Source: Comamonadaceae bacterium
GTDB lineage: Bacteria > Pseudomonadota > Gammaproteobacteria > Burkholderiales > Burkholderiaceae_C
Direction of reading: 5' to 3'
Length of the DNA stretch: 18,400 nt
Assembly (NCBI GenBank): GCA_947454585.1
Contig: CANGML010000010.1
Span: forward strand, 1-18,400
The number at the start of each line of letters is the position of its first letter. Position 1 is the stretch's first letter. Made by a program: the position numbers and the translations under genes. The notes under the pieces are model-generated. The model worked only from the letters and a program-made list of their open reading frames with translations. It was not told the origin of the DNA and made no database searches. Shown here in pieces: positions 1,865 through 18,400 of this stretch.

Positions 1865-1876
1865 TAGGTAAGCACT

Positions 1877-3175
1877 TTGAGTCAACCCGCATCTCTCGAC
1901 ACGATCTTGAACGACCTAGGCGCCCCCGGCTGGCGGGCGCCGCAACGGCGTTTTTTGGCGCTGTTTGTGGTCATCTTTTTGTGGATGATCATTGGCCGTG
2001 TGGACCGTGTGGTCACCGCGCCGGGCAAGGTGATTCCGTTTGACAAGGTCAAAGTCATCCAGCATTTGGAAGGCGGCATCATCAAAGAAATCTTGGTGCG
2101 CGAAAACCAAGAGGTCAAAGCCGGCGACCCCTTGGTTCAGCTCGATCTGGCCACCAGCGGCATCAACAGCGGCGAAATGAACGCTCGCATGGCCACCCTC
2201 AAGCTGGCCAAGCTGCGTCTAGAGGCGGAGTCTGAAGGCGTGGAGCCCGTCTGGCCCGAGGCCATGTTGGCCCAGTTCCCCCAAATCATTGCGGCTGAAC
2301 AAGCCACGTACCTGAGCAAACGCGATGAGCGCAACAGCGCGTTCACCGCCTTGGACAACACGGTGCTGCAAAACCGCCAACGCATGGCGGAATCGCGCGA
2401 GCGCTTGGCCTCGCTCGAAGGCAGCTTGGTGATTGTGCGCAAGGAAATGGCGATTTCTGAGGAGCTGGTGAAAGACAAGCTCACCTCGCAACTGGATCAC
2501 TTTCAGCGCCAAAGCAACCTGGAACGCGTGACGGGCGAAATTGCTCAGCTGCGCCAAGCCATCATTGGCTCACAGGCCGCCATCAACGAGTCAATTGCGC
2601 GCCGCAAGCAAGAAGAAGCCCGATTCAAGCGTGAATCTGCCAACGAAATTGGCGAGTTTGAGCGCCGCATGGCCAGCTTGACCGAAGAGTTGAGCCGCGC
2701 CAACGAACAAGGTGACCGCTCGATCATTCGCGCCCCGATTGATGGCATCGTGAAAAACCTGCGCTTTCAGACCTCGGGCAACGTGGTCAAACCCGGCGAG
2801 CCCATCATGGAAGTGGTGCCGCTGAAAGACCAATTGGTGATTGAACTCAAGCTCAACCCCGCCGACCGTGGCTACGTGAATATGCACCAAGAAGCCTTGG
2901 TGAAGATATCGACCTACGACTTTTACCGCTACGGCGGCTTGATCGGCACGGTCAAAGGCATCGCCGCGGATACCGACATTGGCCGCAACGAAGAGCAGTT
3001 CTACCGCGTCATCGTGAGCACAGACAAAACCTGGCTGGGCGACAAGCCGGGTCTCTATCCCATCACCCCCGGCATGCTCGGGGAAGTGGACATCAAGGTG
3101 GATACGCAAATGATCTTGTGGTCATTGCTGCGACCCGTACTCAAACTCAAAACCGAAGCTTTGCGTGAAATCTAA
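1877..3175 (+). CDS. HlyD-family type I secretion membrane fusion protein
   Basis: Periplasmic adaptor linking the upstream ABC exporter to the outer-membrane channel. The TTG start lies 12 bases after the ABC stop with a weak AGGTAAG upstream. The next in-frame ATG (about 1984) would cut into the membrane anchor, so TTG is preferred. The 432-residue protein has a short cytoplasmic tail and one membrane segment (about residues 26-39). Next comes the HlyD-type beta-barrel/lipoyl segment with APGKVIP and QHLEGGIIKEI, a long charged helical hairpin (about 105-300), and the returning lipoyl half with RAPIDGIVKNL. The C-terminal beta domain ends near the LYPITPGMLGEVDI stretch, which is typical of HlyD/LapC/PrsE proteins. 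Its length is normal for the family. It is almost certainly cotranscribed with its neighbours. Confidence 0.93.
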   Translation: MSQPASLDTILNDLGAPGWRAPQRRFLALFVVIFLWMIIGRVDRVVTAPGKVIPFDKVKVIQHLEGGIIKEILVRENQEVKAGDPLVQLDLATSGINSGEMNARMATLKLAKLRLEAESEGVEPVWPEAMLAQFPQIIAAEQATYLSKRDERNSAFTALDNTVLQNRQRMAESRERLASLEGSLVIVRKEMAISEELVKDKLTSQLDHFQRQSNLERVTGEIAQLRQAIIGSQAAINESIARRKQEEARFKRESANEIGEFERRMASLTEELSRANEQGDRSIIRAPIDGIVKNLRFQTSGNVVKPGEPIMEVVPLKDQLVIELKLNPADRGYVNMHQEALVKISTYDFYRYGGLIGTVKGIAADTDIGRNEEQFYRVIVSTDKTWLGDKPGLYPITPGMLGEVDIKVDTQMILWSLLRPVLKLKTEALREI

Positions 3176-3200
3176 AACATTACTTCAAACGGAAACAACC

Positions 3201-4574
3201 ATGAACACACCAAAATTAAAAGTCCTCGCCGCCCTGGCCATGGTCGCTTGTGCAGGCAGCACGGCCTGGGCCGGCGATTTGAAATCTGAGTTGGTTTACC
3301 TGCGCGAGAACAACCCCTTGCTGCGTGCCAGCACCTTTGCGGTGGGCGCAGCAGAAGAACGCGAAGGCGCGGCCAATGCCGGCTGGTATCCCAAACTGAG
3401 TGTGACGGCGGATGGTGGGCGTGAAAAACTCGTCACAACAAATGCAAATGGCGGTGTGCCTCAAGCCCCCCTCTCAACGGACCTGCAACGCCAAAAAAGA
3501 GGCGTCACCCTAGAGCAAAACATCTTCAACGGTGGCCGTACCTTGGCCACCACCAGCATTGCCAAGTTGGAGCGCGACATCAAGTCCGCTGAACAGCGCG
3601 CCACCTCGCAAGAGGTGTTGCTCGAGGCCATGGTGGCCTACCTGCAGGTGTTGAAAAACCACATGCTGATCAGCTTGTCGGCGATCAACGAAGAAACCAC
3701 GCAAAAGCAGTTGTTCCTCGAAAAAATGCGTGTCGAAAAAGGCGGCGGCATTGCCGTGGACGAGCTGCAAGCCGAAACCCGTTTGCAAGTGGTGCGTGAG
3801 CGCCGCGTGGTGTACGAGCAGGGCATGCGTGATGCGCTGGCCTCTTACGAGCAAGTGTTTGGCAAAAGCCCTGACATGCGTCAGTTCCAAGACGTCAACA
3901 ACTTTGTCAAGGTGATGCCTAAAACCTTGGACGAAGCCATGGCCATGGGCCTAGAAAACAACCCGCGTTTGATGGCCACCAAGCTGGCGGCCGACAAAGC
4001 CAACCGGGTGATCGGCCTGGAGCGCTCAGCCTACATGCCCAGCGTGGACTTGGCGGTGACGCACAACCGTGACAACAACGCGGTGGGTGTGTACAAACGA
4101 GACGAAGATTCGGTGTTGATGAAGATGAGCTGGAACCTGTTCTCCGGTGGCGAGACGGTCAAACGTACCAAAGCCGCGTCGTTGGACCATAAAGAAGCCG
4201 CTGAACGTGAAATCAATGCCCGCAACAAAACCAGCGAAGCCGTGCGCATGGCATGGAACCAATACCAAAAAGGGGTGGAGCGTGTGGAGTTGCTGGACAA
4301 CGCCACCAAGACCTCACGCGCGGTGATGAATGGCCGTAAAAAATTGCGTGATTCCGGCAAAGAAACTGCCCTGGCGGTGTTGGATGCAGAGGTCGAACAC
4401 TTTGGCGTATTGGCGAACAAAGTCAATGCAATGATCGATGCCCGCGTGGGAAGCTATCGCTTGCTGAGTACCATCGGCATGCTCAACTTGAACCAACTCA
4501 ACATCGACGGCGAGCGCATTGAGCTGCCCGTACGTTCCGTGGATGCGGCCATCAAGTCACTGTTGAATGATTAA
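3201..4574 (+). CDS. TolC-family outer-membrane channel of the type I system
   Basis: Outer-membrane efflux trimer subunit (OEP family) completing the ABC-adaptor-channel set. The ATG at 3201 has GGAA about ten bases upstream and opens a good signal peptide (MNTPKLKVLAALAMVACAG, cleaved after AWA near residue 23). A longer in-frame reading from 3165 would overlap the adaptor gene and bury the signal peptide, so it was not used. The mature part holds two OEP repeats. The first contains LEQNIFNGGRT and the second MKMSWNLFSGGET, equivalent beta-barrel entry motifs, each followed by long helical stretches. The predicted product is 457 residues, normal for LapE/TolC proteins. It starts 25 bases after the adaptor stop and ends 16 bases before the glycosyltransferase, consistent with one operon. 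Confidence 0.93.
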   Translation: MNTPKLKVLAALAMVACAGSTAWAGDLKSELVYLRENNPLLRASTFAVGAAEEREGAANAGWYPKLSVTADGGREKLVTTNANGGVPQAPLSTDLQRQKRGVTLEQNIFNGGRTLATTSIAKLERDIKSAEQRATSQEVLLEAMVAYLQVLKNHMLISLSAINEETTQKQLFLEKMRVEKGGGIAVDELQAETRLQVVRERRVVYEQGMRDALASYEQVFGKSPDMRQFQDVNNFVKVMPKTLDEAMAMGLENNPRLMATKLAADKANRVIGLERSAYMPSVDLAVTHNRDNNAVGVYKRDEDSVLMKMSWNLFSGGETVKRTKAASLDHKEAAEREINARNKTSEAVRMAWNQYQKGVERVELLDNATKTSRAVMNGRKKLRDSGKETALAVLDAEVEHFGVLANKVNAMIDARVGSYRLLSTIGMLNLNQLNIDGERIELPVRSVDAAIKSLLND

Positions 4575-4590
4575 GTAACGCCACACCTCA

Positions 4591-5832
4591 ATGAAGATCC
4601 TGATCGTTCACCAGAACTTTCCTGGCCAGTTTCTCCACCTCGCACCCGCGCTGGTGGCGCAGGGCCACGAGGTTCACGCCTTGGTCTTGAAAAAAGAGGT
4701 ACCCCCGCAATGGTCGGGGGTCACCTTGCATGCTTACCAGCCGACCAAAGGCACGGCACCGACGGTTCACCCCTGGGCGCTTGACCTTGAAACCAAGATC
4801 ATTCGTGCGGAGTCGGTATTTCGCAAGTGCTTGGCGTTGCGCGAGCAGGGCCTTCATCCCGACGTGGTCTTGGCCCATCCGGGCTGGGGCGAGAGCTTGT
4901 TCATCAAAGACGTGTGGCCCAAAACCAAACTCGGCATTTACTGCGAACTCAACTACAGCGAATCTGGCAATGACGTGGGCTTTGACCCCGAATTCAAGAG
5001 CGACGACCCCGGCGACTCGTGCCGCTTGCGTTTGAAGAACATCAACAACGTGATGCACTTTGACTTGGCCGATGGCGCCATTGCGCCCACGCACTTTCAA
5101 GCCGACACCTTTCCTTGGCCCTTTCGCGCCAAGATCAAGGTGTTCCATGACGGCATCGATTCCAAGCTGATTGCACCCAATCCTGGGGCCAAGTTTCAAA
5201 TCAACGCCAACACGGTGGTGTCGCGTGCCGACGAGGTCATCACCTTTGCCAACCGCAATTTGGAGCCTTATCGCGGCTACCACATCTTCATGCGGGCCTT
5301 GCCACGTTTGCTCAAAGAGCGGCCCAAGGCCCAGATCATCTTGGTGGGAGGCGATGGCGTCAGCTATGGCCGTAAACCGACCGGCGACAAGAGTTGGAAA
5401 ACCATCTTTGCCGACGAGGTGAAGCCCCAGATTGACCCCAAGGACTGGGCGCGCGTGCACTTTGTGGGCCACTTGCCGCACCGAGAGTTCATTCAATTGC
5501 TGCAAGTCAGCACCGTCCATGTGTACCTGACCTACCCGTTTGTGCTGAGCTGGAGCCTGTTGGAGGCCATGAGTGCAGGCTGCGCCATCGTGGGCAGCGA
5601 CACCGAGCCCGTGCGTGAATTCATCCAAGACCATGAAAACGGCGTGTTGACCCCTTTCTTTGACACCGACAAACTGGTCGATAACGTGAGCCTGCTTCTG
5701 GAGAACCCCGATTTGAGGGCCAAACTAGGCGGCGCGGCACGTAAGAAGATTCAGTTTTTCTATGACCTCAAGTCGGTCTGCTTGCCCCGTTTGGTCAAGT
5801 GGGTCGATGCGCTATCGCCCAAGATCGGCTGA
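4591..5832 (+). CDS. Glycosyltransferase family 4 (GT-B fold)
   Basis: Predicted cytoplasmic retaining glycosyltransferase that moves a sugar from a nucleotide-sugar donor; donor and acceptor are unknown. The N-terminus MKILIVHQNFPGQFLHLAPAL matches the Glyco_trans_4_3-type N-terminal domain. The C-terminal half is a group-1 glycosyltransferase domain with ITFANRNLEPYRGYHIFMRA, the glycine loop ILVGGDGVSYG, and YPFVLSWSLLEAMSAGC (Glu325) followed by EPVREFIQ. The first Glu of the classical E-x7-E motif is not present at its usual place; the YPFVLSWSLLEAM form is, from memory, usual in this subfamily. The product is 413 residues with no signal peptide or membrane segment. No clear Shine-Dalgarno precedes the ATG, which lies 16 bases after the channel gene, suggesting translational coupling. 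Its position between two protein export systems suggests a role in surface glycan or adhesin glycosylation, which is inference only. Confidence 0.88.
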   Translation: MKILIVHQNFPGQFLHLAPALVAQGHEVHALVLKKEVPPQWSGVTLHAYQPTKGTAPTVHPWALDLETKIIRAESVFRKCLALREQGLHPDVVLAHPGWGESLFIKDVWPKTKLGIYCELNYSESGNDVGFDPEFKSDDPGDSCRLRLKNINNVMHFDLADGAIAPTHFQADTFPWPFRAKIKVFHDGIDSKLIAPNPGAKFQINANTVVSRADEVITFANRNLEPYRGYHIFMRALPRLLKERPKAQIILVGGDGVSYGRKPTGDKSWKTIFADEVKPQIDPKDWARVHFVGHLPHREFIQLLQVSTVHVYLTYPFVLSWSLLEAMSAGCAIVGSDTEPVREFIQDHENGVLTPFFDTDKLVDNVSLLLENPDLRAKLGGAARKKIQFFYDLKSVCLPRLVKWVDALSPKIG

Positions 5833-5836
5833 CCCC

Positions 5837-6346
5837 ATGAAGAAACATCAGCTCCTGATGAGCCTGGCCTTGGCGGGGTGTTTGAGCGCTGTGCAGGCGC
5901 AACGCATCGACGGCATGGACTATGGCGAACCCGACAACCCGTTGCTTCAGCGCATCTTCAGCGTCCAGCACATGGCGTCATGGACAGACCCAACGCAAGA
6001 CCTAGTCGCCTTGGGTAAGTTTGGCGATGGCACGTTTTGGCTCAGCGACAAGAGTGTGCGGCGCAACTGGCAAGGCCATGTGATTTTGAAGCTTTTCAAA
6101 ATCTACGACACACCTAAGTTTTTACGCCACACCAACGATCCCTTCAGACGCCAAAAACGAACGCCTTACAGCGCGACCGAGTCCATCGTGGCGCTGGATT
6201 GCGAGAACAAGACTTACGCGGTCAAGTCGGATGCTTTGTATGACAGCAGCCTGAATCTGGTGAGTTCAGAAAGCTACAAGTACGAGTTTTCAGCCTTCAA
6301 GCTCGATTCGGTGATGGCGCGTGTCCAACAAAACTACTGTTTTTAA
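5837..6346 (+). CDS. Small exported protein, surface-adhesin protein E-like
   Basis: 169-residue exported protein of uncertain function. The ATG at 5837 is four bases after the glycosyltransferase stop. A longer in-frame version from 5762 would overlap that gene and hide the signal sequence. The N-terminus MKKHQLLMSLALAGC has a lipobox-like LAGC (Cys15), and there is also a signal peptidase I-like site after AVQA (residue 21), so it may be a lipoprotein or a soluble periplasmic protein. The mature part has FWLSDKSVRRNWQGHVILKL, ALDCENKTYAV, an ALYDSSLNLVSSES stretch and a C-terminal Cys. This spacing of aromatic, Asp-Cys and Tyr-Asp elements resembles surface-adhesin protein E family members (PF16747), which are small and often surface lipoproteins. 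The resemblance is by eye and moderate. Its last 26 bases overlap the next gene. Confidence 0.75.
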   Translation: MKKHQLLMSLALAGCLSAVQAQRIDGMDYGEPDNPLLQRIFSVQHMASWTDPTQDLVALGKFGDGTFWLSDKSVRRNWQGHVILKLFKIYDTPKFLRHTNDPFRRQKRTPYSATESIVALDCENKTYAVKSDALYDSSLNLVSSESYKYEFSAFKLDSVMARVQQNYCF

Positions 6347-6785
6347 CTTGGTCCTGGCCACGCTGAGGCGGAGTCCATGGCTCGCACTCCTCGCGGGCTT
6401 GTCTGCGTGGTCGCAAACCCCGCCTGACGCCGGGGCTTTGATGCGTCAAACCGAGCAAATGCTTCGTGCCAACCCCGTCCATAATCCAAGCCGTGCGGCC
6501 CTGGCGCCGGCCCTGGTGATCGATGTGAACACCGCTGTGGCCGTCAAACGCATTCAATTTGCGGGCCACAAGCACCTCAGCCTGGACACCTTGCAACAGC
6601 TGGCGCGCCCTTACGAGGGCCGAACGCTGGACGGCAACGACTTGCACCACCTGACTTACGCGGTGACGCAGGCTTACCGAGAGGCCGGCTGGGTCGTGCA
6701 AGCCTATGTGCCGCGCCAACCCTTGCAAACGGGCGATTTGCTGATTCAGATCATCGAATCCGTCCCCCCCAGCAGCAAGCCCTGA
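6321..6785 (+). CDS. Stand-alone POTRA-domain (ShlB/FhaC-type) periplasmic protein
   Basis: 154-residue protein with a signal sequence and a single POTRA_2-like domain but no beta-barrel. From the GTG at 6321 it overlaps the preceding gene by 26 bases. A TTG at 6348 would give a tidier signal peptide (VLATLRRSPWLALLAGLSAW) and is a possible alternative start. The POTRA segment runs from VKRIQFAGHKHL (residue 75) to IIESV (148), 74 residues. It aligns without gaps to the first POTRA of the downstream TpsB (its residues 97-170), with 25 of 74 identities counted by hand, including IQF.G, PY.G, AV...YR and IESV. TpsB already has two POTRA domains, so this is an extra one in trans. It may help dock the TpsA substrate or regulate TpsB (inference). 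It could also be the remnant of an older tpsB that lost its barrel, but the frame is intact and the signal peptide is kept. Confidence 0.82.
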   Translation: MSNKTTVFNLVLATLRRSPWLALLAGLSAWSQTPPDAGALMRQTEQMLRANPVHNPSRAALAPALVIDVNTAVAVKRIQFAGHKHLSLDTLQQLARPYEGRTLDGNDLHHLTYAVTQAYREAGWVVQAYVPRQPLQTGDLLIQIIESVPPSSKP

Positions 6786-6865: not shown

Positions 6866-8650
6866 GTGAAGTTGAGCCGGTCGCGAATCCTGGCTGCGGT
6901 GGCCTTCCTGTGTCTTTTGGCCGGGTCGTTAGAGCTCTACGACCCCGTTTTGCCCAAAAACGCAGGCACCGTGCTGCGCGCGATTGAAGAAAAAACAGCC
7001 TTGCCTGTGACCGAATGGGCGCAGGCCGTGACCGGCCAAAACTACGCCAAACCCAAGCCCCGTGAGGTCTACGCGCCCGGCACCATTGGCGCAGCCATGG
7101 ACAAAATGCTCGCCGACCAAGAGGCGGCCGAAGACGCCAAGGCGCTCATCACGCTCAAAGACATCCAATTCACAGGCGTCACCATCCTGGGCGACATGGA
7201 GCTCAAGGAGCTCGTCTCACCCTACATCGGCGTGCCCATGAGCTACGAACACATGCTCGACATCGGCATGGCCGTGGAAACCTACTACCGCAAGAACAAC
7301 TACCTGGCGCGCGCCATTTTGCCGCCGCAGGACTTGACCGAGGGCGTCTTGACCGTGGACGTGATCGAGTCCGTGTTCTCCAAAATCGAGGTCGAGCAAG
7401 AGCTGGCCGATCTGCCCAACACCGAACAGCACGTGACCCACCTGATCCAAGCCCAGCAACCCACCGGCCAGTTGCTCAACACCCAGGCCTTGGACCGCGG
7501 CTTGGCATTGGCCAACGAGATTCCGGGCCTGAGCGTCAAGGGCTCCTTGCGCCAGGGGCGTGAGGCGGGCGAGACCGAATTACTGCTTGAGTTGTACAAA
7601 GGGCGTACACGTCAGGCTGAGTTGACGGCGGACAACGGCGGCTCACGCTCGACCGGCGCCATCCGTCTGCTGGCCAGCATGACCTGGTTTAACCCCAATG
7701 ACATCGCCGACATGCTCAACATCGTGGCCGTGCATACCCGTGGCAGCGATTACGCGCGCTTGGCCTACAGCATCCCGGTGGGCACCGATGGCTGGCGCAT
7801 GGGGCTGAACGTGTCCAGCATGAACTATGAAGTGGTGGTGGGCGAGCAGGGCATGGTCGGGGCCATGGGCCGCGCCATCACGCAGGGTTTGGAATGGGTC
7901 TATCCCTTGCTGCGAAGCGAGCAAGCCAATGCCACGGTCACCCTCAATGCGGATGACAAAGTATTCAAAAACACCTCTGCCCAAGGGTTGGTGATGTCCG
8001 ATTACGCCGCCAAAGTGCTATCGGCCCAGGTGGCGGGCTTCTACCGCGACCTCAACCCAGGCGGGGGCACGGGGACTTATTCCGTCATGGTGTCGCATGG
8101 CGACATCAACCTCAACGGCTCCTTGAACCAGCAAACAGACATGAGCGGCCCCAGAACGGCGGGGAGTTTCAACAAAATGCGCCTGAGCGGCACCTGGCAA
8201 CAAGCCCTCAGCACCCAAACCTCGGCCTTTGTCTCCTACACAGGCCAGTTGACAGACAAAAACCTCGACAGCTCCGAAAAAATGCAGCTCGGTGGCATGA
8301 ACGGCGTGCGCGCCTACCCCACGGGCGAGGGGTCGGGTTCAGATGCCCAACTCATTCAGCTCGAGCTCAGACATCAATTAGAGAGCGGCATTCTGATGAC
8401 TGGCTTCTACGACTGGGGCCAGGTCTGGTTGCAGCACAACCCTGACTTCCCAGGCGGCCCGCTGAATAACCGCAACACCTACCGCGGTTTTGGTGCCAGC
8501 GTGGGCTATACCAACGACGATGGGGTGAACTTCCGGGCGACGTGGGCGCGCCGACAAGGCCACAACCCCAACCCGACCCAAACCGGCATGGACCAGGACG
8601 GCACCCGCGACCGCAACCGCTATTGGCTCCAAGTCACCGTCCCGTTCTAA
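6866..8650 (+). CDS. TpsB-type two-partner secretion transporter (ShlB/FhaC family)
   Basis: Outer-membrane Omp85-superfamily transporter that should export the TpsA encoded downstream. The GTG at 6866 is chosen because an in-frame TAA sits at 6860-6862 and later starts (TTG 6872, GTG 6899) shorten or spoil the signal sequence. There is no evident Shine-Dalgarno. The N-terminus has a basic then hydrophobic segment (SRSRILAAVAFLCLLAG), then a linker to about residue 96. POTRA1 is 97-170 (LKDIQFTG to VIESV) and POTRA2 about 171-246. A 16-strand-type barrel follows to the C-terminus (594 residues), ending in VTVPF with the terminal Phe expected of outer-membrane barrels. The barrel contains LGGMNGVRAYPTGEG, the conserved VRGY/F-type motif of lid loop L6 (VRAYP at 481-485). 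Size and architecture are normal for the family. The stop is 27 bases before tpsA. Confidence 0.95.
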   Translation: MKLSRSRILAAVAFLCLLAGSLELYDPVLPKNAGTVLRAIEEKTALPVTEWAQAVTGQNYAKPKPREVYAPGTIGAAMDKMLADQEAAEDAKALITLKDIQFTGVTILGDMELKELVSPYIGVPMSYEHMLDIGMAVETYYRKNNYLARAILPPQDLTEGVLTVDVIESVFSKIEVEQELADLPNTEQHVTHLIQAQQPTGQLLNTQALDRGLALANEIPGLSVKGSLRQGREAGETELLLELYKGRTRQAELTADNGGSRSTGAIRLLASMTWFNPNDIADMLNIVAVHTRGSDYARLAYSIPVGTDGWRMGLNVSSMNYEVVVGEQGMVGAMGRAITQGLEWVYPLLRSEQANATVTLNADDKVFKNTSAQGLVMSDYAAKVLSAQVAGFYRDLNPGGGTGTYSVMVSHGDINLNGSLNQQTDMSGPRTAGSFNKMRLSGTWQQALSTQTSAFVSYTGQLTDKNLDSSEKMQLGGMNGVRAYPTGEGSGSDAQLIQLELRHQLESGILMTGFYDWGQVWLQHNPDFPGGPLNNRNTYRGFGASVGYTNDDGVNFRATWARRQGHNPNPTQTGMDQDGTRDRNRYWLQVTVPF

Positions 8651-8677: not shown

Positions 8678-11600
8678 ATGGCTATGTTGCGCTTTGTAGA
8701 AACACGCCCCTTGAAATCTGACGTCCGACGACCTCAGATCGCCAAGTCGCGTGTCTCTCAATATGCCTTGTCTCAAGTTCTGGGGCTGGCAGGCTTGTTG
8801 GCGAGTCCCGCCATGGCCCAAACAGGGCCCGTGGCCAGCACCCAGTTGCCCAGCGGGGGTCAAGTCAACGCGGGTCAAGCCACGATCAGCCAGTCGGGCA
8901 ACACGCTCAATGTGAACCAAAGCAGCCCACGCGCGGTGGTCGACTGGAACACTTTCAACGTCGGCAAAGACGCCACGGTCAACTTCCAGCAACCCAACGC
9001 GCAGTCGGCCACCCTCAACCGCGTCGCCGACACCCAGCCCAGCCAGATCCTGGGTCGTATCACGGCGCCCGGTCAAGTCGTGCTGGTGAATCCCCAAGGT
9101 GTGTACTTTGGCAAGTCATCCAGCGTGGATGTGGGGGGCTTAGTCGCCACCACACACGATGCTGCCAATAAAGAGTTCATGGACGGGCAGATCAAGCTCA
9201 GCCGCAACGGTGCCACTGGCAAGGTCGAAAACGAGGGCGAACTGCGCGCTGCCTTGGGGGGCTACATCGCGCTGCTGGCGCCCGAAGTGCGCAACAACGG
9301 CGTCATTGTGGCCAACCTCGGTACCGTGGCTTTGGCTGCAGGTGAAACCTTTGAGCTTAAATTTGACGGCGCTGGCGTGCTCAGCACCGTGCGGGTGACG
9401 GCTGCGACCCTCAACGCCTTGGTGGACAACAAAAACGCCATCAAAGCACCCGGCGGCTTGATCATCTTGTCGGCCCAAGCGGCCAGCCGCTTGCAAAGCG
9501 GGGTGGTCAACAACACCGGCAGCATCGAAGCGGCGGGTTTGGTGCGCCGCGCGGGGCGCATCTTGCTGGAAGCCAGCAGCAGCATTTTTAACAGTGGGAG
9601 TCTCAAAGCCGATGCCTCCAGTGGTTTGAATGGGGGCCCCGCTGGCACCGTTGCCCTGAATGCACCTGAGGTCCAGAACAGCGGCACGATCAGCGCTAGC
9701 AATTGGGCAGCCACTAACTTAGTGGCAAATGCATTGCCGGCAGATATGGGGCGCATCAGCATTCAAGCCGACAGCTTCACCCAAACCGCGACCGGTCTCA
9801 TCGATGTCTCGGCGGTCGCCCTGCAAGCCGGCACCGTCGACATCGTGGCGGCCCAAGCCCTGGCGCTGAGCGGTCGCATCTTTGCCAATGGCGTGGTGTC
9901 CGACCCCACCCAGATCGTGGCCAACGCCCTGGGCGGCACCATTCAACTTCAAGCCTCGCGCCGGGTGGATCTGACCACCGCCGTGTTGGATGCGTCGGGC
10001 GAGGGCGGGGGCGGACGCATCCATATTCAGGCTGATGGCGTGCCGACACCGGTGAACGACCCAGCCAACAACCCAGCCCAAGCGCCGGTCAAAGGTGCGG
10101 TGCTGCTGAGCACCAACACCGTGTTACGGGCCAACAGCGCCCGCGCCCAAGCGGGTCGCGTGGAGGTGGAGGGTGATGACATCAGCCTCGACACAGGCAC
10201 CCGGATCGAGGCCAAAGGGGCTACCAAAGGCGGGACGGTGTGGATTGGTGGGGGCTGGCAGGGTGCGGGCCCCTTGCGCCACGCCACCACCGTGATGATG
10301 AGTTCGGACAGTGTGATTGATGCCAGCGCCACGGACAACGGGGATGGCGGCGAGGTGGTGTTGTGGAGTGATGTGCACAACGCCAATTCAGTCACCGCTG
10401 TGAACGGCAGCCTTTATGCAAAAGGTGGCACTTATGGTGGTGATGGTGGGCATGTCGAGACATCGGGCAAGCTCTTGCAGTTAGGTAACCAGCTTTCTAT
10501 CTCCACAAAATCAATGCTCGGAGCCGATGGTGAATGGCTGCTAGATCCTGAACACTTGTGGATACGAGACCCCAGTTGGAACGGCTACAACTACACGACC
10601 AGTGGATCAACCACTTACACCGCACAAACGGCCAACCCTTCAGCCACGTTTTTGGTGAGCGGGGCCACAGATACGCGGGACAGAGGGCCCACCGTGGACG
10701 GTGTTTTCTATCCTGGCGTGACAGTGATTAGGACTGACACGATCAATGCGGCACTTGCCAACGGCAGCGTCAGAGTTGTGGCCACCGGATTGATCAGTGC
10801 TGCGGGCTGGCAACTAGAACCGCCCACTTACCAAAATTACTACATTTCAACGACAACAACGAATAAGTTAACGCTCCAAGCGGGAACATCCATCACGCTC
10901 ACCAGCGCTAAATTCAACCTGCCCAACGGTACGTTTGAACTGTTGGCCAACACCACCATTTCGCAAACTGGCCCGACCACGGGGGGTGCGATTTACGCCA
11001 ACACCTTGATCTTGGGTTCTTCTGATGGTGGCACAAGCAAACCTGCTGTGACCTTAACGGATGCCACCAACTACATCACCAATCTGCAAGCCAACAACCT
11101 CAGCGCGCTGAGTTTGTCCAACGCCCAATCCATGACCGTCAACAGCAACGGCTTGAATGTGTCCGGCGCCGTAACTTTGTCGGTCACGGGTGACTTGACG
11201 GTAAATGGCGCGATTGCCTTGGCAGGGACAAGTTCACTCACTTCGAGCAACGACATTCTGGTGAATGCCAACATCACCAAAACCGCAGGTGCTGATGCCA
11301 CGCTGACGGTGAAGTCGGCAAGACATTTGTCCTTTAGTACCAACACAAGCCTGACCTCGACCAGCAACAAACTCAATATGGTGTTGAACGCTGACTCAGA
11401 CAAGTCAGGTGATGGTTTCATCAAGTACTCAGGCCCCAGCATCAACACCAACGGGGGATCATTGCAATTCGGCATTGGCGATACCGCCGTCTTAAACAGT
11501 GCCACGGTTTATGTGGGGGGCGATGTATCGTTTGACGGTTCATCTGCCCAAACGGTGACAACCGGTGGCGGTGCGGTGTCCATCTACGGCGAAACTTTGT

Positions 11601-14600
11601 TGGCGAACACCTCGGGCTTGACCATCAACTCAGGCAGCGGTGCTGTGCGGTTTTATGGGGTGGTCAACTCCGCGAGTCAAATTTTTACGGGCATCAACTA
11701 TGGCTCTGGCATCAGTTGGCTGACGGCGCTGGACCAAGCGGACAACGTCGCCAACAGCTACTTGGCCAGCATCAGCTCTCGGCTCGAGAACTCGATGGCA
11801 GCCCTCTCGGTGAACTACAACACGGCATGGATTGGCGGTCGTCGCAACAGCGCCGGTGTGTGGAAGTGGGAAGCGGGCCCATTGGCTGGCCAAGCCATTA
11901 CTTATACCAACTGGGCCTCTGGCGAGCCCAACAACTGTTGCACCAACATCGCTAACGGCAATGGTTTCTATGGCGAAAACGCCATGCAGTTCACGGGTAG
12001 CAACGGCAATTGGAACGATTTGTTTGACAACGCAGGCGCAGGCCAAACCCTCAATTGGTACGTTCGGGCTACAACACTGAACAGCTCACCCCTGACGGTG
12101 ACCTCTACTGGTAATGTGACTTTTGACAAAGCGGTGGGGGTGAATAAAACACTGACCAATTTGTCGGTGACTGGCAATCAGGTCACGTTCAGTGATGCCC
12201 TGAAGCTCGACAGCACAGGGGCCATCATCACCAACACAGGTGCAAGCTTGATTGCGGGCAGCATCACTGGCACGGGCGCACTCACCAAGAATGGGGCGGG
12301 CGCCTTAACCCTCACAGGCAACAACACTTACTCGGGGGCGACCAACATCAACGCTGGCAGCTTGCTGGTGGGTGCAGGTGGCACCTCGGGTACTTTGGGC
12401 ACGGGCTTGGTGACCAACAACACCGCCTTGGTCTTTAACCGCAGTGATTTGTTCACCGTCACCGCCACCCTCACAGGCGCTGGCACGCTGACCAAACAAG
12501 GCGCTGGCAAATTAGCCCTGACTGCTGCCAACACTTATACAGGTGCCACTACGCTCAGTGCAGGTACTCTGGGAATCTATAACAACGCGGCAGCGGGTAC
12601 AAGTGCCATCGCAGCCGCGGATGGCACGTCCTTAATGTTTGGCCGTAATGTGACCAACTTTGCCAACAACATGACCCTCACGGGTAGTGTGACGTTTGAC
12701 CTTGACTCATCAGTTGACTATTTGGTGGTTGGCGGCGGCGGCGGCGGCGGCGCACACGTGGGCGGCGGCGGTGGCGGCGGTGGGGTACTCGCCAGCACGC
12801 TTGATTTACTGTCTGACACGAGTTTGTCTATCAATGTGGGAGCTGGCGGTGCGGGAGCTGCCAGCGTGGCAGCAAGTTCGACTTACAGCTCATTTGGTGC
12901 TAATGGAGGCAGTTCGTCGATAACTTTCTCAACTCTACCTGCTATTACTGCCCTTGGCGGTGGTAAAGGTGCGACCTGGCAATCGTATGCTGGTGGAGGC
13001 GCAGGTCTGTCGTCTGGTGGTGGCGGTACGGGTACCACCTATCCAGCTGGTACCGGAACTGCTGGGCAAGGTTTCGCAGGCGGCACAGGTGCAGGCACTG
13101 ACCCTTACTCCTCGGGCGGCGGTGGCGGTGCCGGTGGCGCAGGGGGGGCTGCAAGCCAAACAAATGGCTCAAACTCAGGTGCCAGGGGGGGTAACGGTGG
13201 TGTCGGTTTGGCGTCTGCCATCACCGGTTCAACTACATATTACGGCGGCGGCGGCGGCGGTGGAATACACGGTACGGCGCCCTTCCAAAACTTTGCTGGG
13301 GCCATGGGCGGCTTAGGTGGCTTGGGTGGCGGCGGCAACGGCACGCCATTGGACACCAATACGACCAGTTACACAGCCACAGCAACAAGTGGTGCAGTCA
13401 ATACGGGTGGCGGCGGCGGCGGTTCTGGTGGTGGTCTCAACACCATTAACACCAACGGCGGTGCAGGTGGCTCGGGCCTCGTTGTGGTGAGGTATCTGGG
13501 GAGCAGCGCAGGAACGGGTGGCACAGTGTCCTCTGGCACTGGCAGTGCCACTGGCTACACATTGCACACGTATACCAGCACGGGTGCAGCTTCTCTGTCT
13601 CTGAATGCCTTGAATGTCATGCTCAGCGGCACCATCAGTGGCGCTGGCTCGATGGTCAACAACGCCACGGGCGGCAAGATTTCATTGATGAACGCCAACG
13701 CCTACACAGGTAGCACTACGGTCAGTGGCGGCACCTTGGGCATTTACAACATGGCGGCCATCAGCCCTGGTGCGTTGATTGCTGATAACAACACCACCTT
13801 GTTATTGGGCCGAAGCATCACGGGCCTGACCAACAACATCACCCTCAATGGCGCGGTAAACGTTGCGTATGACAACAAGATTGACTACCTCGTGGTCGGA
13901 GGCGGTGGCGGTGGTGGCAGTGATGGCGGCGGTGGCGGCGGCGGTGGTGCCGTCGTAAGTAAAACAGGCATCGACATTGGCGCGGCTCTGGCACTGACCG
14001 CCACAGTGGGCGGCGGTGGCACTGCTGGGGCGTGGGCAGGTGCTGGTGCTACTGCAGGAGGTGACTCAAGGCTGAATTTCGGTTCTACAACTGATATCGC
14101 CACGGGTGGTTCGGGCGGCACTGTCTATCCAAATGGACCAGGTGGGGCTGGCGGCTCGGGCAATCAGTCAACTAGCAACGGCGGTGCAGGTGGCGCTGGC
14201 ACTGCAGGCAACACAGGTTTAAGTGGTGGCACTGGCCCAACTTCTAACATCACAGGCACTTTAACCAATTACGGTGGCGGCGGCGGCGGCGGTGTGACGT
14301 TCACGAACTCAGGCGTATTTACTGGTGGCGCTGGTGGCGCTGGCGGTGGCGGAGCAGGCACGTCCATAGCTAACGATGTACCCACGGCTTGGGCTGCGGC
14401 GGGCAGAGCCAATACGGGTGGCGGTGGCGGTGCGGGCACAGCCAGTTATCTCCCACAAAGTGCAGGCGATGGCACCGGCTATCGAACACCCGGCGGTGCA
14501 GGGGGCTCCGGTCTTGTGGTGGTTCGCTACTTCGGCAGCAGTGCGGGGACGGGTGGCACCGTCTCAACAGGGACGGGCAGTGCATTGGGTTACACCCTCC

Positions 14601-17600
14601 ACACGTTCAGTACGACGGGCAATAGCACTCTCACGCTCAATGCGTTGGCTGCCACATTCAGCGGGTCGATCACGGGGGCGGGTTCTTTAACGGCTAGCCC
14701 GTCTGCAGGGGGTAAGTTCACTTTTACCGCCAACAACTCGTATGCGGGTAGCACCACGCTCAGTTCGGGTACCTTGCAAGTCGGAACGGGCGCAACAGCG
14801 GGCTCTTTGGGGGCGTTGTCGGCCAACGTGCTGAACAACGGCACGCTGATCTTTAACCGCAGTGATGCCTTAACTTATTCAGGTTTGTTCAGTGGGACTG
14901 GCGCGTTGAAGGTCGAGACCGGGGGCATCACCCTCACGGGGGGTGCCACGTACACAGGCCTTACCACGCTGTCATCAACCCCCACGCCCAGCCGCATCAC
15001 GTACACCAACAACACGGTTCCTAGCACCAGTGGTTTTGCAGGTACCGGCGCTGTCACGATTGCACCTGCTGCAGCTTCTAGCTTCTCCAGTGCTTTCACG
15101 CCCAACTACACATTTGCCACCACCCTTACGGGCTTGACCTTGGGCAGTAGCAGCAACAGTGCAGACATCACGCTTAACAACGCCATTTCTATTGCAGGCC
15201 CCATCACGGTGGACGGTGGGCAGCTGAACTTGAACAACAGTTTTCAATCCACAGCGACTGGCGCAGATCTCACCTTCCGCGCTAAAACGAATATCAGCAA
15301 CACGGCGCTTGCCACACTGAGGACCAGCGGCGGCAACATCTTGTTGGCATCCAACGTGGATGATGCGATCGACAACGACACGACCAACAATGGATACATC
15401 CGGCTTGACTATGGTTTGAATGCCTATTCAAACGGCGGCAACATCACCATTGGTGGGGGCAACACGGCTGGCACTGGCTATGCTTTGGGGTCTTCAAACG
15501 AAGCGCAAACCCATGGTTTCCGGGTGGATCGCACGCTGACCTTGAGTTCTTCAGGTGGCAATATCGCCATTCGCGGTAAGTCTTATGCCAGGGCTGTTCA
15601 AGTCGGGTGGGGCGCTTCAGGGGTTGGCTTTTATTTCTTGACCTCCAGCGGTTTGATCGACAGTGGTACAGGCACCATCTTGATCGACGGGTACAGCCAA
15701 ACTTGGGGCAGTAGCTACAGCTCAGGGGTCTACTTCTATACCCAGCAACCCTTCACCATTCAATCTGCCAATACGACGGCAGACGCGATCAGGATCATTG
15801 GAAAAGCAACGGGGGCAAGTGGCGAGGCTTGGGCGATGGAGCAAGAGGACAACACGCTGTCCGTCTTGGCTACCGGAGCGGGTGGTGGGATCACGCTCAA
15901 TACCTCGCAAAAACTAACGCTTGAAGTGGTGATGCGCGGGACGTGGAATATGTTGGCTAGCAGTGGCCCGATCACGTGGAACGGGAAGTCCGATGCCGAT
16001 GGATTGACAGGAACCTGGTGGGGCCCCCTTTCTTACTGGGGATCCAAATCGGGAACAGCAGTTCAAACCAGCTCATCCAACATCAGCATTGCTGCTGACA
16101 GTTTCAACTGGGCTGGCGGAACCAACCCACTCTTTGGCACCACCGGAACCGTCGAGATCAAACCCGCGTCGGCGTCCTTTGCCAACCCCACTTACACCAG
16201 TTGGTTTGTTCTCAATCAGAACGCTCAAACGGTGAGTGGATTTACCTTGGGTAAGCCCGGAAACACCTCGTTAGTCACTGTCAATACAGCGGTCTCAGCC
16301 AATGGTCCGATCAATCTCTACGGTGGCAATGTGGACATCAATCAGGCGTTGACGACAACTGCCTTAGGCGCAGACATTTTGGTGAAAGCCTCAGGCAACA
16401 TCACGTCGACGGGTGATTTGACGCACAGCACCAACGCGGGAGACATCACGTTTTGGAGTGACAGCGATGCTTCGGGTGGCGGCTACACCTACTTGCATGA
16501 CAGAAACATCCTGGACACCCGCACCAGTGCGAACCGCACCAGTAGCCTAATTAGCACTGCGAGTGGCGGTGGCACTATTACTATGGGCGGAGGCACAGCC
16601 AGCACCACACTGCTCTCGGGAACAGTGGTGCCCACGGGCTACGCCGCAGACAACACCAGCTCATTGCCGGGTGGGGTGTCGCTGGGCTACTTCAACGGCG
16701 GTCACAACAGCGGCATCAAGTTGTATTCGGGGGGCGGCAACATCACGATACGTGGCAAGTCAACCTCCATCTGGGCAGGCGACTCGTCAGGCATCGCCGC
16801 GCTGGAAGGGCTCACGCTGGATGCAGGGACCACGGGCAACATCACCTTAGATGGGGTCGGTGGTCCGAGCGGATCCAGTTACAGCGCGGGTATCTTTTTG
16901 GGTTATTGGGGAACCAACGGCAATGCTGCGACGCTTCTCAAAACAGGCAATGGCAACATCTCTTTAACCGGCGTGGGCACAGGTGGCACGAGTAACCGCG
17001 GCATTATTTTCTGTTGTACCAATGCCATGCCCATCACCATCGAGGCAACGGGCACTGGCACCGTCAGTTTGACTGGCAGCGGCGCAACCCAAGACTTTTT
17101 GTTTTCGGGTGGTCACAGAATTTTGGCGGCCAGCGGGGCGATTACCCTCACTGGCACCACATCCACGGGGCCGCTCCAGGCCGATACCGCCGTCACCACC
17201 ATTGGCTACAAGTCAGGGAGCGATGTGACCAGCTCAACCAGCAACATCACCCTCACCGATGACAGCATGAGTCTCGCCGCAGGGAATGGTTTGCAGGTGA
17301 ATACCTCAGGCAAGCTGACCATTCAGCCTTACGGCAATAACTTCACCTCACTGACCTATCCGATCACCAACTTTGCGGTCTCGTCGGATGTCACCGGTTT
17401 AACCATTGGCAAAGACCTGGGCAGCACGGCACACACGGATACGGTCACGATCGGTGGCATCACCAGCATCAGTGGGCCCATCAGCGTGTATGCAGGCACG
17501 ATCAACGTCAACAGCAATTTGACGACCAGTTTGGCCAATGCGGCTATCTTGCTCAAAGCCAGTGGCAACATCACCCAAGCCACGGGTGTCGATGTCACGA

Positions 17601-18400
17601 CCAACGGTGGCAACGTGACGTATTGGTCAGATAGCGATGCCAACAGCCAAGGCAATATTTACTTGGTTGCCGCTACTTCAGCCAACACCACCAGCATCAC
17701 TACCAGCGGCGGCAACATCACGATGGGGGGTGGCAGCAACCTCACCACAGGCTATGCCTCCGGCTATGGCAACAGTTTCACGACCGAGCACGGCATCAAC
17801 ATTGATACCTACAGCACCTTGAACGCAGGGACCGGCGCGGTGACCTTGCGTGGTACTTCTGCCGCCTCACTCGATGACTACATCATCGGCTTGCGTATTT
17901 CGGGGACGGGTGTCAGTGTCACAGGTAGCAACCTCAGCCTGGTGGGTAATGCCTCCGCGGCAATCAGCGCAAATAACAAAGGCGCTTGGGGCACAGCCAT
18001 CATCAACGGGGCTTCGGTCACGGGCAGCGGCACCATTGACATCACAGGCACGGGGGGTGGCAATACATCGTCGGGTAGCAACTACGGTGTCTTGCTTTGG
18101 AACCCCGTCACCGGCACTGGCTCGGGTGCAGTGACTGTCACCGGCACAGGCGGTGGCGGCACGGGGAGCAACAACTACGGCATCAGTGTGAGCAATGCAT
18201 CCACCACCAAGAGCGCCAGTGGCAGCCTCACCCTGACTGGTCGAGCAGGCAGTGGCACCAACAGCCAAGGTATTTATATAGGTGGCAGCAGCACGCTAGG
18301 GGGTGTTGGGCAAAGCGGGGCCGTGACCTTAAGTACCGATGCACTGAGCTTGAGCGGAACCAATGCTTTAACGACCACGGGTGTGGTGACGATTCAGCCC
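8678..18400 (+). CDS. Giant TpsA adhesin, filamentous-haemagglutinin type, 3' partial
   Basis: Secreted fibre partner of the TpsB above. The frame stays open for 3,241 codons and reaches the right edge, so the C-terminus is not visible. ATG 8678 is the first start; ATG 8684 has a better-spaced GGA (8675-8677) and may be the real one. Residues count from 8678. An extended signal peptide ends PAMA (cleavage after residue 47). The TPS domain follows, with VVDWNTFNVGKDATVNFQQP, LNRV and NPQGVYFG (Asn138). A beta-helical region contains GEWLLDPEHLWIRDP (about 618-632), then come a C-type lectin-like domain (991-1133), five PATR repeats, two glycine-rich domains and large Gly/Thr/Ser/Asn-rich C-terminal modules. 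Only four cysteines were found, in two CC pairs. It lies 27 bases after tpsB and in the same frame, surely cotranscribed. It probably acts in adhesion or biofilm formation; the ligand is unknown, and the lectin domain points to a glycan. Confidence 0.95.
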   Translation, partial: MAMLRFVETRPLKSDVRRPQIAKSRVSQYALSQVLGLAGLLASPAMAQTGPVASTQLPSGGQVNAGQATISQSGNTLNVNQSSPRAVVDWNTFNVGKDATVNFQQPNAQSATLNRVADTQPSQILGRITAPGQVVLVNPQGVYFGKSSSVDVGGLVATTHDAANKEFMDGQIKLSRNGATGKVENEGELRAALGGYIALLAPEVRNNGVIVANLGTVALAAGETFELKFDGAGVLSTVRVTAATLNALVDNKNAIKAPGGLIILSAQAASRLQSGVVNNTGSIEAAGLVRRAGRILLEASSSIFNSGSLKADASSGLNGGPAGTVALNAPEVQNSGTISASNWAATNLVANALPADMGRISIQADSFTQTATGLIDVSAVALQAGTVDIVAAQALALSGRIFANGVVSDPTQIVANALGGTIQLQASRRVDLTTAVLDASGEGGGGRIHIQADGVPTPVNDPANNPAQAPVKGAVLLSTNTVLRANSARAQAGRVEVEGDDISLDTGTRIEAKGATKGGTVWIGGGWQGAGPLRHATTVMMSSDSVIDASATDNGDGGEVVLWSDVHNANSVTAVNGSLYAKGGTYGGDGGHVETSGKLLQLGNQLSISTKSMLGADGEWLLDPEHLWIRDPSWNGYNYTTSGSTTYTAQTANPSATFLVSGATDTRDRGPTVDGVFYPGVTVIRTDTINAALANGSVRVVATGLISAAGWQLEPPTYQNYYISTTTTNKLTLQAGTSITLTSAKFNLPNGTFELLANTTISQTGPTTGGAIYANTLILGSSDGGTSKPAVTLTDATNYITNLQANNLSALSLSNAQSMTVNSNGLNVSGAVTLSVTGDLTVNGAIALAGTSSLTSSNDILVNANITKTAGADATLTVKSARHLSFSTNTSLTSTSNKLNMVLNADSDKSGDGFIKYSGPSINTNGGSLQFGIGDTAVLNSATVYVGGDVSFDGSSAQTVTTGGGAVSIYGETLLANTSGLTINSGSGAVRFYGVVNSASQIFTGINYGSGISWLTALDQADNVANSYLASISSRLENSMAALSVNYNTAWIGGRRNSAGVWKWEAGPLAGQAITYTNWASGEPNNCCTNIANGNGFYGENAMQFTGSNGNWNDLFDNAGAGQTLNWYVRATTLNSSPLTVTSTGNVTFDKAVGVNKTLTNLSVTGNQVTFSDALKLDSTGAIITNTGASLIAGSITGTGALTKNGAGALTLTGNNTYSGATNINAGSLLVGAGGTSGTLGTGLVTNNTALVFNRSDLFTVTATLTGAGTLTKQGAGKLALTAANTYTGATTLSAGTLGIYNNAAAGTSAIAAADGTSLMFGRNVTNFANNMTLTGSVTFDLDSSVDYLVVGGGGGGGAHVGGGGGGGGVLASTLDLLSDTSLSINVGAGGAGAASVAASSTYSSFGANGGSSSITFSTLPAITALGGGKGATWQSYAGGGAGLSSGGGGTGTTYPAGTGTAGQGFAGGTGAGTDPYSSGGGGGAGGAGGAASQTNGSNSGARGGNGGVGLASAITGSTTYYGGGGGGGIHGTAPFQNFAGAMGGLGGLGGGGNGTPLDTNTTSYTATATSGAVNTGGGGGGSGGGLNTINTNGGAGGSGLVVVRYLGSSAGTGGTVSSGTGSATGYTLHTYTSTGAASLSLNALNVMLSGTISGAGSMVNNATGGKISLMNANAYTGSTTVSGGTLGIYNMAAISPGALIADNNTTLLLGRSITGLTNNITLNGAVNVAYDNKIDYLVVGGGGGGGSDGGGGGGGGAVVSKTGIDIGAALALTATVGGGGTAGAWAGAGATAGGDSRLNFGSTTDIATGGSGGTVYPNGPGGAGGSGNQSTSNGGAGGAGTAGNTGLSGGTGPTSNITGTLTNYGGGGGGGVTFTNSGVFTGGAGGAGGGGAGTSIANDVPTAWAAAGRANTGGGGGAGTASYLPQSAGDGTGYRTPGGAGGSGLVVVRYFGSSAGTGGTVSTGTGSALGYTLHTFSTTGNSTLTLNALAATFSGSITGAGSLTASPSAGGKFTFTANNSYAGSTTLSSGTLQVGTGATAGSLGALSANVLNNGTLIFNRSDALTYSGLFSGTGALKVETGGITLTGGATYTGLTTLSSTPTPSRITYTNNTVPSTSGFAGTGAVTIAPAAASSFSSAFTPNYTFATTLTGLTLGSSSNSADITLNNAISIAGPITVDGGQLNLNNSFQSTATGADLTFRAKTNISNTALATLRTSGGNILLASNVDDAIDNDTTNNGYIRLDYGLNAYSNGGNITIGGGNTAGTGYALGSSNEAQTHGFRVDRTLTLSSSGGNIAIRGKSYARAVQVGWGASGVGFYFLTSSGLIDSGTGTILIDGYSQTWGSSYSSGVYFYTQQPFTIQSANTTADAIRIIGKATGASGEAWAMEQEDNTLSVLATGAGGGITLNTSQKLTLEVVMRGTWNMLASSGPITWNGKSDADGLTGTWWGPLSYWGSKSGTAVQTSSSNISIAADSFNWAGGTNPLFGTTGTVEIKPASASFANPTYTSWFVLNQNAQTVSGFTLGKPGNTSLVTVNTAVSANGPINLYGGNVDINQALTTTALGADILVKASGNITSTGDLTHSTNAGDITFWSDSDASGGGYTYLHDRNILDTRTSANRTSSLISTASGGGTITMGGGTASTTLLSGTVVPTGYAADNTSSLPGGVSLGYFNGGHNSGIKLYSGGGNITIRGKSTSIWAGDSSGIAALEGLTLDAGTTGNITLDGVGGPSGSSYSAGIFLGYWGTNGNAATLLKTGNGNISLTGVGTGGTSNRGIIFCCTNAMPITIEATGTGTVSLTGSGATQDFLFSGGHRILAASGAITLTGTTSTGPLQADTAVTTIGYKSGSDVTSSTSNITLTDDSMSLAAGNGLQVNTSGKLTIQPYGNNFTSLTYPITNFAVSSDVTGLTIGKDLGSTAHTDTVTIGGITSISGPISVYAGTINVNSNLTTSLANAAILLKASGNITQATGVDVTTNGGNVTYWSDSDANSQGNIYLVAATSANTTSITTSGGNITMGGGSNLTTGYASGYGNSFTTEHGINIDTYSTLNAGTGAVTLRGTSAASLDDYIIGLRISGTGVSVTGSNLSLVGNASAAISANNKGAWGTAIINGASVTGSGTIDITGTGGGNTSSGSNYGVLLWNPVTGTGSGAVTVTGTGGGGTGSNNYGISVSNASTTKSASGSLTLTGRAGSGTNSQGIYIGGSSTLGGVGQSGAVTLSTDALSLSGTNALTTTGVVTIQP
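8819..9541 (+). other. TPS (haemagglutination activity) domain of TpsA
   Basis: The secretion domain recognised by TpsB POTRA domains starts right after the predicted signal cleavage (Gln48). It shows the family pattern in order: VVDWNTFNVG, VNFQQPNAQSATLNRV, ILGRITAPGQVVLVNPQGVYFG, VGGLVATT, and GGYIALLAPEVRNNGVIVA. The NPNGI-type motif is NPQGV here (138-142). The right boundary near residue 288 is approximate. Confidence 0.9.
9542..11647 (+). other. Beta-helical stalk of TpsA between TPS and lectin domains
   Basis: About 700 residues of short alternating hydrophobic/Asn-Gly-Thr segments (for example GTVALNAPEVQNSGTISAS and GRISIQADSF), as expected of a right-handed beta-helix. It includes GEWLLDPEHLWIRDP (about 618-632), a conserved break seen in long haemagglutinin-like proteins of this type. 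From about 10850 it becomes more Thr/Ser/Asn-rich. No separate gene or recognisable catalytic domain was found here. Confidence 0.7.
11648..12076 (+). other. C-type lectin-like domain embedded in TpsA
   Basis: About 143 residues (991-1133) follow the C-type lectin fold pattern. There is a helix-like SWLTALDQADNVA and ASISSRLENSMAALSV, then AWIGG (Trp1051), VWKWEAG (Trp1062, Trp1064), NWASGEPNN (Trp1079), GENAM (Glu1100), GNWND (1112-1114) and a closing WYVRAT. In known lectins the site-2 calcium ligands come from EPN, the ENC Glu and the WND Asn and Asp. All are present here as Glu1083, Asn1085, Glu1100, Asn1113 and Asp1114. EPN is the mannose/glucose-type form. The two canonical disulfide cysteines are missing (ENC is ENA, and the last Cys position is Arg/Ala), while a vicinal CC (1087-1088) sits beside the binding loop. 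Sugar specificity is inferred from the motif only. Confidence 0.85.
12269..12370 (+). repeat. PATR repeat 1 in TpsA
   Basis: Reads GALTKNGAGALTLTGNNTYS then GATNINAGSLLV, the standard passenger-associated (autotransporter-associated beta strand) repeat: LTK.G.G.L.L.G.NTY.G.T.I..G.L. It forms beta-helix rungs. Confidence 0.85.
12470..12580 (+). repeat. PATR repeat 2 in TpsA
   Basis: Reads LTGAGTLTKQGAGKLALTAA then NTYTGATTLSAGTLGIY. It leads into glycine-rich domain 1 through a GIYN spacer and begins the first unit of the tandem module duplication. Confidence 0.85.
12713..13585 (+). other. Glycine-rich domain 1 of TpsA
   Basis: Starts VDYLVVGGGGGGG, runs about 260 residues of Gly/Ala/Ser/Thr with repeated GGGGG blocks, closes GGSGLVVVRY (13495), then GYTLHTYTSTG. 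This YLVVGGGGG to SGLVVVRY bracket is known from glycine-rich domains of large surface proteins and phage tail proteins; it is not RTX (no GGxGxDxx nonapeptides). It interrupts the beta-helix between PATR repeats 2 and 3. Its DNA contains seven GGC triplets in a row at 12731-12751. Confidence 0.8.
13622..13747 (+). repeat. PATR repeat 3 in TpsA
   Basis: Reads LSGTISGAGSM, then KISLMNANAYTGSTTVSGGT and LGIY. It is the equivalent of PATR repeat 2 at the start of the second module unit, including the same LGIYN exit. Confidence 0.8.
13880..14620 (+). other. Glycine-rich domain 2 of TpsA
   Basis: Starts IDYLVVGGGGGGGSDGGG and closes GGSGLVVVRYFGSSAGTGGT (the RY at about 14530), then GYTLHTFSTTG. 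It is a shorter copy of domain 1 with near-identical edges (YLVVGGGGGGG, GLVVVRY.GSSAGTGGTVS) but a diverged interior. Confidence 0.8.
14657..14782 (+). repeat. PATR repeat 4 in TpsA
   Basis: Reads FSGSITGAGSL, then GKFTFTANNSYAGSTTLSSG and TLQV. It resumes the beta-helix after glycine-rich domain 2 and leads to VLNNGTLIFNRSD, which resembles NNTALVFNRSD after PATR repeat 1. Confidence 0.8.
14888..14974 (+). repeat. PATR repeat 5 in TpsA (degenerate)
   Basis: Reads FSGTGALKVETGGITLTGGA then TYTGLTTLSS. It is the last and shortest recognisable copy and diverges after LSS into a TPTPSRITYTNN linker. Confidence 0.7.
15263..18400 (+). repeat. Three large C-terminal tandem modules of TpsA
   Basis: Modules begin near 15263, 16370 and 17540, spaced 1,107 and 1,170 bases, the third cut by the window edge. 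Shared landmarks in order: ADLTFRAKTNIS / ADILVKASGNIT / AAILLKASGNIT; in modules 2 and 3 DITFWSDSDA / NVTYWSDSDA; NITIGGGN / TITMGGGT / NITMGGGS; GNIAIRGKS / GNITIRGKS / GAVTLRGTS; and VEIKP / LTIQP / VTIQP near the close. The first two then carry FVLNQNAQTVSGFTLGK and FAVSSDVTGLTIGK. Protein-level similarity is clear but diverged. The modules likely form stacked beta-helix blocks. Confidence 0.75.

Follow-up and report, generated by a model that had tools for sequence, protein, structure and literature searches.

The window, by which we mean the whole stretch of 18,400 nucleotides analyzed here, very probably encodes a two-partner-secreted (TPS) fibre adhesin with a true C-type lectin domain (CTLD) inserted as a loop in its rod. 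The window is the source contig CANGML010000010.1 in full and belongs to a genome that is 69% complete; all features located below lie on the forward (+) strand.

The fibre gene and its surroundings

The fibre frame, tpsA (8678..18400), is open at the contig end and encodes 3,241 residues so far. Its membership in the TpsA family is indicated by an N-terminal TPS secretion domain at residues 57-309 (8846..9604; PF05860, 5.1e-39) and by the adjoining gene for TpsB, an outer-membrane transporter of the ShlB/FhaC type (6866..8650; Pfam ShlB 2.5e-21, POTRA_2 1.7e-10). Farther along the fibre lies a glycine-rich domain, the better of two such stretches, at residues 1336-1606 (12683..13495; PF21722, 1e-29). 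The contig also encodes an ABC transporter, an HlyD-type protein, an outer-membrane efflux protein and a glycosyltransferase, and one small frame matched no Pfam family. Together, the first three form a type I secretion set that, along with the glycosyltransferase, adjoins the TPS genes (44-5832), and a separate 154-residue POTRA_2 protein is encoded at 6321-6785, immediately upstream of the full TpsB, which also contains a POTRA.

A C-type lectin fold within the fibre

The first-pass annotation had placed a C-type lectin domain in this fibre from its motifs alone, and the motifs AWIGG, WKWE, EPN, E-N-A and WND were all found in the translation in the order given. The nucleotides it covered (11648-12076) correspond to residues 991-1133 of TpsA; we extend the domain to residues 991-1140 (11648..12097), with a structurally aligned core at about 999-1136, on the basis of sequence matches, a family profile and a structure model. 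Searching 180 residues with phmmer against 177,635 distinct PDB sequences recovered CD23 at E = 6.8e-6, and the 57 sequences at E ≤ 1 were C-type lectin-like chains by name, except for one 'Hypothetical protein yk1067a12'. A profile built from 31 relatives found collectin placenta 1 at 7.7e-7, followed by CD23, SRCL and MBP-C.

The structure model of the domain is a confident CTLD with the double-loop fold, which, together with the alignment of the site-2 residues with CD23, bore out the fold that the first-pass annotation had expected from structure prediction. A continuation of the beta-helix, the outcome it had named as speaking against a lectin, was not predicted between about residues 999 and 1136. 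Judged by this model, the domain is a true C-type lectin fold inside a bacterial TPS fibre. The weakest part of the model is the loop holding a pair of adjacent cysteines, with a block mean of 57 and values below 50 at residues 157-159. The loss of the canonical disulfide cysteines was correctly reported: none of them is present in the domain, so the long-range disulfides of canonical CTLDs are absent, and the only cysteines are C1087 and C1088, which had gone unmentioned. The other bacterial CTLDs that we compared likewise have few or no cysteines.

An insertion in the beta-helix rod

The model places short beta-helix strands immediately before the lectin (residues 936-998; 11483..11671), in a flank conserved in 31 rows of the alignment, and again after it (residues 1137-1189; 12086..12244), where related frames carry the repeat without a lectin. 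An example of such a lectin-free repeat is VTFSSTLNGAYALTVNTSG. Aligned by eye with these related repeats, the window has VRFYGVVNSA and SSPLTVTSTG on the two sides of the lectin, which accordingly sits in a turn of the coil that is elsewhere a few residues long. The ends of a CTLD lie close together, which would suit insertion in a beta-helix turn.

The putative calcium and sugar site

The putative calcium and sugar ligands were located by alignment: E1083 and N1085 in the EPN motif with P1084 (11924..11932), E1100 (11975..11977), and N1113 and D1114 of the WND motif (12014..12019), the same five residue numbers that had been given previously. In the phmmer alignment, the CD23 site-2 residues E249, E257, N269 and D270 pair with E1083, E1100, N1113 and D1114; the CD23 numbers were obtained by counting, and PDB titles name the mutants E249A and D270A. 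N1085 supplies the Asn of EPN. The site-2 set E-x-N, E and N-D is thus complete, with EPN rather than QPD, a difference that serves as a sign of sugar specificity, EPN marking the mannose type. Calcium site 1 has not retained its acids, as those of an engineered CD23 chain face Arg and Ala, and D258 faces Asn, when aligned by eye. The loop after EPN is nine residues longer than that of CD23 in the phmmer alignment.

E1083, P1084, N1085, E1100, W1112, N1113 and D1114 are identical in 41/41 beta-helix CTLDs, and the same columns are kept in 21 other CTLDs, except for N1113 (19/21); L047, which has QPD, was dropped before this count. From the alignment, the five ligands would cluster as site 2, and the EPN motif and ligand set point to calcium dependence and mannose-type specificity, suggesting that the fibre probably grips sugars. 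The conserved ligands could also serve stability alone.

The reach of the Pfam lectin model

The match to Lectin_C (PF00059) that had been anticipated was not found: the excised domain gave none at E ≤ 10, the whole 69%-complete genome gave none at E ≤ 1, and Pfam and NCBIfam scans of the domain returned no lectin family. Lectin_C matched only 3 of the 31 family members at E ≤ 1 and missed the other 28. Two close relatives, P0003 and P0004, which share 60% and 55% identity with the window domain over the lectin stretch, pass its cut-off (36.2 and 26.4 bits versus 22.6). As these relatives pass and the CTLD fold was predicted, we attribute the negative result to the narrowness of the Pfam model.

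Relatives and distribution

Searching among long proteins only gave nine matches; among the best four, three have a Pfam TPS domain, and the fourth, from Rhodopirellula and named filamentous hemagglutinin, has Pfam YDG, DUF5649 and PATR and no TPS. P0002-P0005 have two CTLDs each, and the window CTLD aligns with the second CTLD of such relatives. No second CTLD with a positive score was found by phmmer when the lectin domain was compared with the 3,241 residues of the window TpsA, from which the gene end is absent; the absent end could hold a further CTLD. Two relatives have TPS and Lectin_C together in precomputed Pfam annotation, so the architecture is already visible in databases. No paper describing a CTLD in a TPS fibre was found in the titles and abstract starts of the open-licence literature.

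Scanning 84,980 species genomes with a sequence pattern recovered at least 30 related loci. By a local TPS profile, the CTLD frame has a TPS domain in 23/30 loci, L032 has one in an overlapping frame, and none was found in the CTLD frames of L003, L010 and L011; L018, L024 and L028 start at or near a contig end. A TpsB-like frame lies in the fetched stretch of 17/30 loci, and Pfam TPS was present in 22 of the 29 N-termini given, the window included. TPS fibres with a CTLD occur in Pseudomonadota, Planctomycetota, Verrucomicrobiota, Nitrospirota and Omnitrophota, with organisms taken from record titles and tree labels and several of them metagenome-assembled genomes (MAGs). The lectin in a TPS fibre was upheld as a CTLD within the TpsA frame, not as a single splice but as a member of a conserved lineage in several phyla. 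The C-terminal tails of L010 and L011 resemble what we take to be type IX and IPTL-type sorting signals, so the lectin module seems to use other export routes too. L010 (a Flavobacteriaceae record) and L011 (a Wenzhouxiangella MAG) share long near-identical N-terminal stretches and differ in these tails, reflecting either recent transfer or a binning error. In L003, a Bacteroidales record, two consecutive frames of about 820 residues (9362-14325) each have a beta-helix CTLD.

Closer to the window, model A1 matched 5/61 near genomes and 17/399 genomes of the order at E ≤ 0.001, several of these matches being short frames and not fibres. The longer model A2 matched 16/84 genomes of the genus, four of them over the lectin (G000, G445, G019 and, in part, G474); its other matches start from position 184 of 278 and correspond to the repeat following the lectin. 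In G474, the copy reads EPD in place of EPN and is part of a different type of protein. Three genomes of the genus (G447, G448 and G449) have open frames between 10,056 and 11,675 residues long, in which the post-lectin repeat recurs many times.

A tree of 62 domains places the beta-helix CTLDs together on one side of a branch (support 100/98), and the next branch holds bacterial CTLDs, including PEP-CTERM lectins, with weak support (87/73). A recent transfer from animals was rejected, as the 41 beta-helix CTLDs fall on one side (100/98) and adjoin other bacterial CTLDs with a midpoint root, in a tree that is weak on origin because it had only two animal rows, both long branches.

A vicinal cysteine pair beside the predicted calcium site

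The cysteines C1087-C1088 (11936..11941) form a vicinal pair beside the calcium site, after EPN. TpsA has four cysteines in its 3,241 residues, arranged as two adjacent pairs (1087-1088 and 2779-2780). The second pair, in the sequence FCCTN, lies in a beta-helix repeat at 17012-17017. CC is found at the same place as the lectin pair in P0002, P0003 and P0004. Across 29 proteins there are 81 cysteines in 74,860 residues and six CC pairs, where chance predicts 0.09; the lectin site of related proteins accounts for four of the six, which are hence not independent.

Most beta-helix CTLDs lack cysteine altogether. In the loop that holds the pair, L011, L013 and L022 carry C-x3-C or C-x5-C, and one of the L003 CTLDs groups with that of the window yet lacks the pair. 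A single origin of the pair was rejected, since the tree requires at least five changes at the fewest; that tree included the loop columns.

The stand-alone, mostly PEP-CTERM lectins (L035, P0013-P0132), of about 170-240 residues with a surface-sorting tail, lie outside any fibre, and L035 passes both the Lectin_C and the PEP-CTERM cut-offs. Among the 120 listed of 388 found, 116 have EPN..E..WND, 113 have CC in the same loop and 103 have the form EPN[ND]CC[GN]GE[DN], in a sample that leans towards CC because the query itself has it.

A possible role of the pair is to stiffen the binding loop or to provide its floor. In an excerpt of PMC12102755, citing a 2017 paper, vicinal disulfides are described as able to bind a sugar ring on its bare side, to stabilize structure or to act as switches, and in an excerpt of PMC4557014 they hold the oligomer of a sponge galectin together; given these other roles, sugar binding is only one option for C1087-C1088. 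Tentatively, and with more doubt than belief, we propose a bacterial C-type lectin lineage without long-range disulfides, in which a vicinal Cys-Cys ring between both calcium-ligand motifs would be part of the sugar-binding floor. As a vicinal ring ties no loop, it could pass the outer-membrane TpsB pore, and one lectin design could then serve both secreted fibres and anchored surface proteins.

Comparison with known systems

Animal CTLDs (mannose-binding proteins C and A, CD23 and mannose receptor CRD4) are 17-29% identical to the window in the matched rows. Unlike them, the window CTLD lacks the canonical disulfides and the site 1 acids, has a vicinal Cys pair and is set inside a secreted bacterial rod. 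The layout is the same in the Rhodopirellula protein P0005, whose source name 'Filamentous hemagglutinin' leaves the lectin unmentioned, and in loci L005 and L007; their two CTLDs, around residues 603-629 and 1004-1030, have no Cys, in contrast to the window. L005 and L007 match the local TPS profile, and no TpsB-like frame was seen in the fetched stretch.

Filamentous haemagglutinin FhaB is a TPS fibre with a carbohydrate-recognition region part-way along its rod; this region is not known to be a CTLD, which sets it apart from the window. CdrA of Pseudomonas aeruginosa is likewise a TPS beta-helix fibre and binds Psl. According to an excerpt of PMC2847200, CdrA aggregation needs mannose-rich Psl and is lowered by mannose, and an excerpt of PMC7616799 places the adhesive tip at the N-terminus and, in the pore, a cysteine hook at the C-terminus. 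These portions of the two papers assign no CTLD to CdrA, and it is by these descriptions that CdrA is set apart from the window. By analogy, CdrA is the nearest functional precedent for the window fibre, and the presence of the hook suggests that TpsB does not let ordinary disulfide loops through. If such loops are barred, lectins without long-range disulfides would be favoured; however, long-range disulfides are also missing from the stand-alone relatives, and their loss is thus not necessarily an adaptation to TPS.

Alternative explanations

In a low-complexity fibre, lectin motifs might arise by chance while the beta-helix simply continues, and the failure of Lectin_C on the window copy would fit this account. 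The PDB sequence matches, the profile of the relatives, the CTLD model and the conserved ligands all contradict it, leaving it a negligible chance. We give just as little credence to the CTLD being the variable protein of a diversity-generating retroelement (DGR), even though the loop is rich in Asn codons and the literature, judged by titles and abstract starts, often treats CTLDs of bacteria and phages as DGR targets. There is no fitting repeat inside the tpsA gene, and neither a second copy of the 429 bases nor RVT_1 was found in the 69%-complete genome, in which such an absence is weak evidence.

A CTLD fold could also bind a protein or an inorganic surface, with calcium for stability only. 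Many CTLDs bind no sugar, such as the antifreeze and intimin/invasin types; an antifreeze CTLD is among the structure matches to the domain, and the added length of the post-EPN loop relative to CD23 counts in the same direction. CTLDs that gave up sugar usually lose the EPN/E/ND set, whereas here the full set is invariant among the beta-helix CTLDs, and we consider a non-sugar ligand unlikely.

The preferred reading, a TPS fibre adhesin with an inserted C-type lectin, implies a chain that would leave the cell unfolded via TpsB and fold outside into a rod, with the CTLD, its ends close together, folding between two beta-helix strands. Calcium at site 2, together with E1083, N1085, E1100 and N1113, would hold adjacent equatorial hydroxyls on a sugar resembling mannose, glucose or fucose, and the fibre would thereby hold its owner to glycan-coated or glycoprotein surfaces or to matrix polysaccharide.

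Implications

TPS fibres are known to bind sugars, and to our knowledge the place of binding on the rod and the fold responsible have been established for few of them. A complete calcium-type lectin site whose position in these fibres is known would let sugar binding be tested on a domain of about 150 residues. Through the vicinal Cys pair, what may be a new way of constructing a lectin site can be tested concretely and cheaply, and the EPN motif points to a mannose-type CTLD in free-living bacteria, outside a DGR setting.
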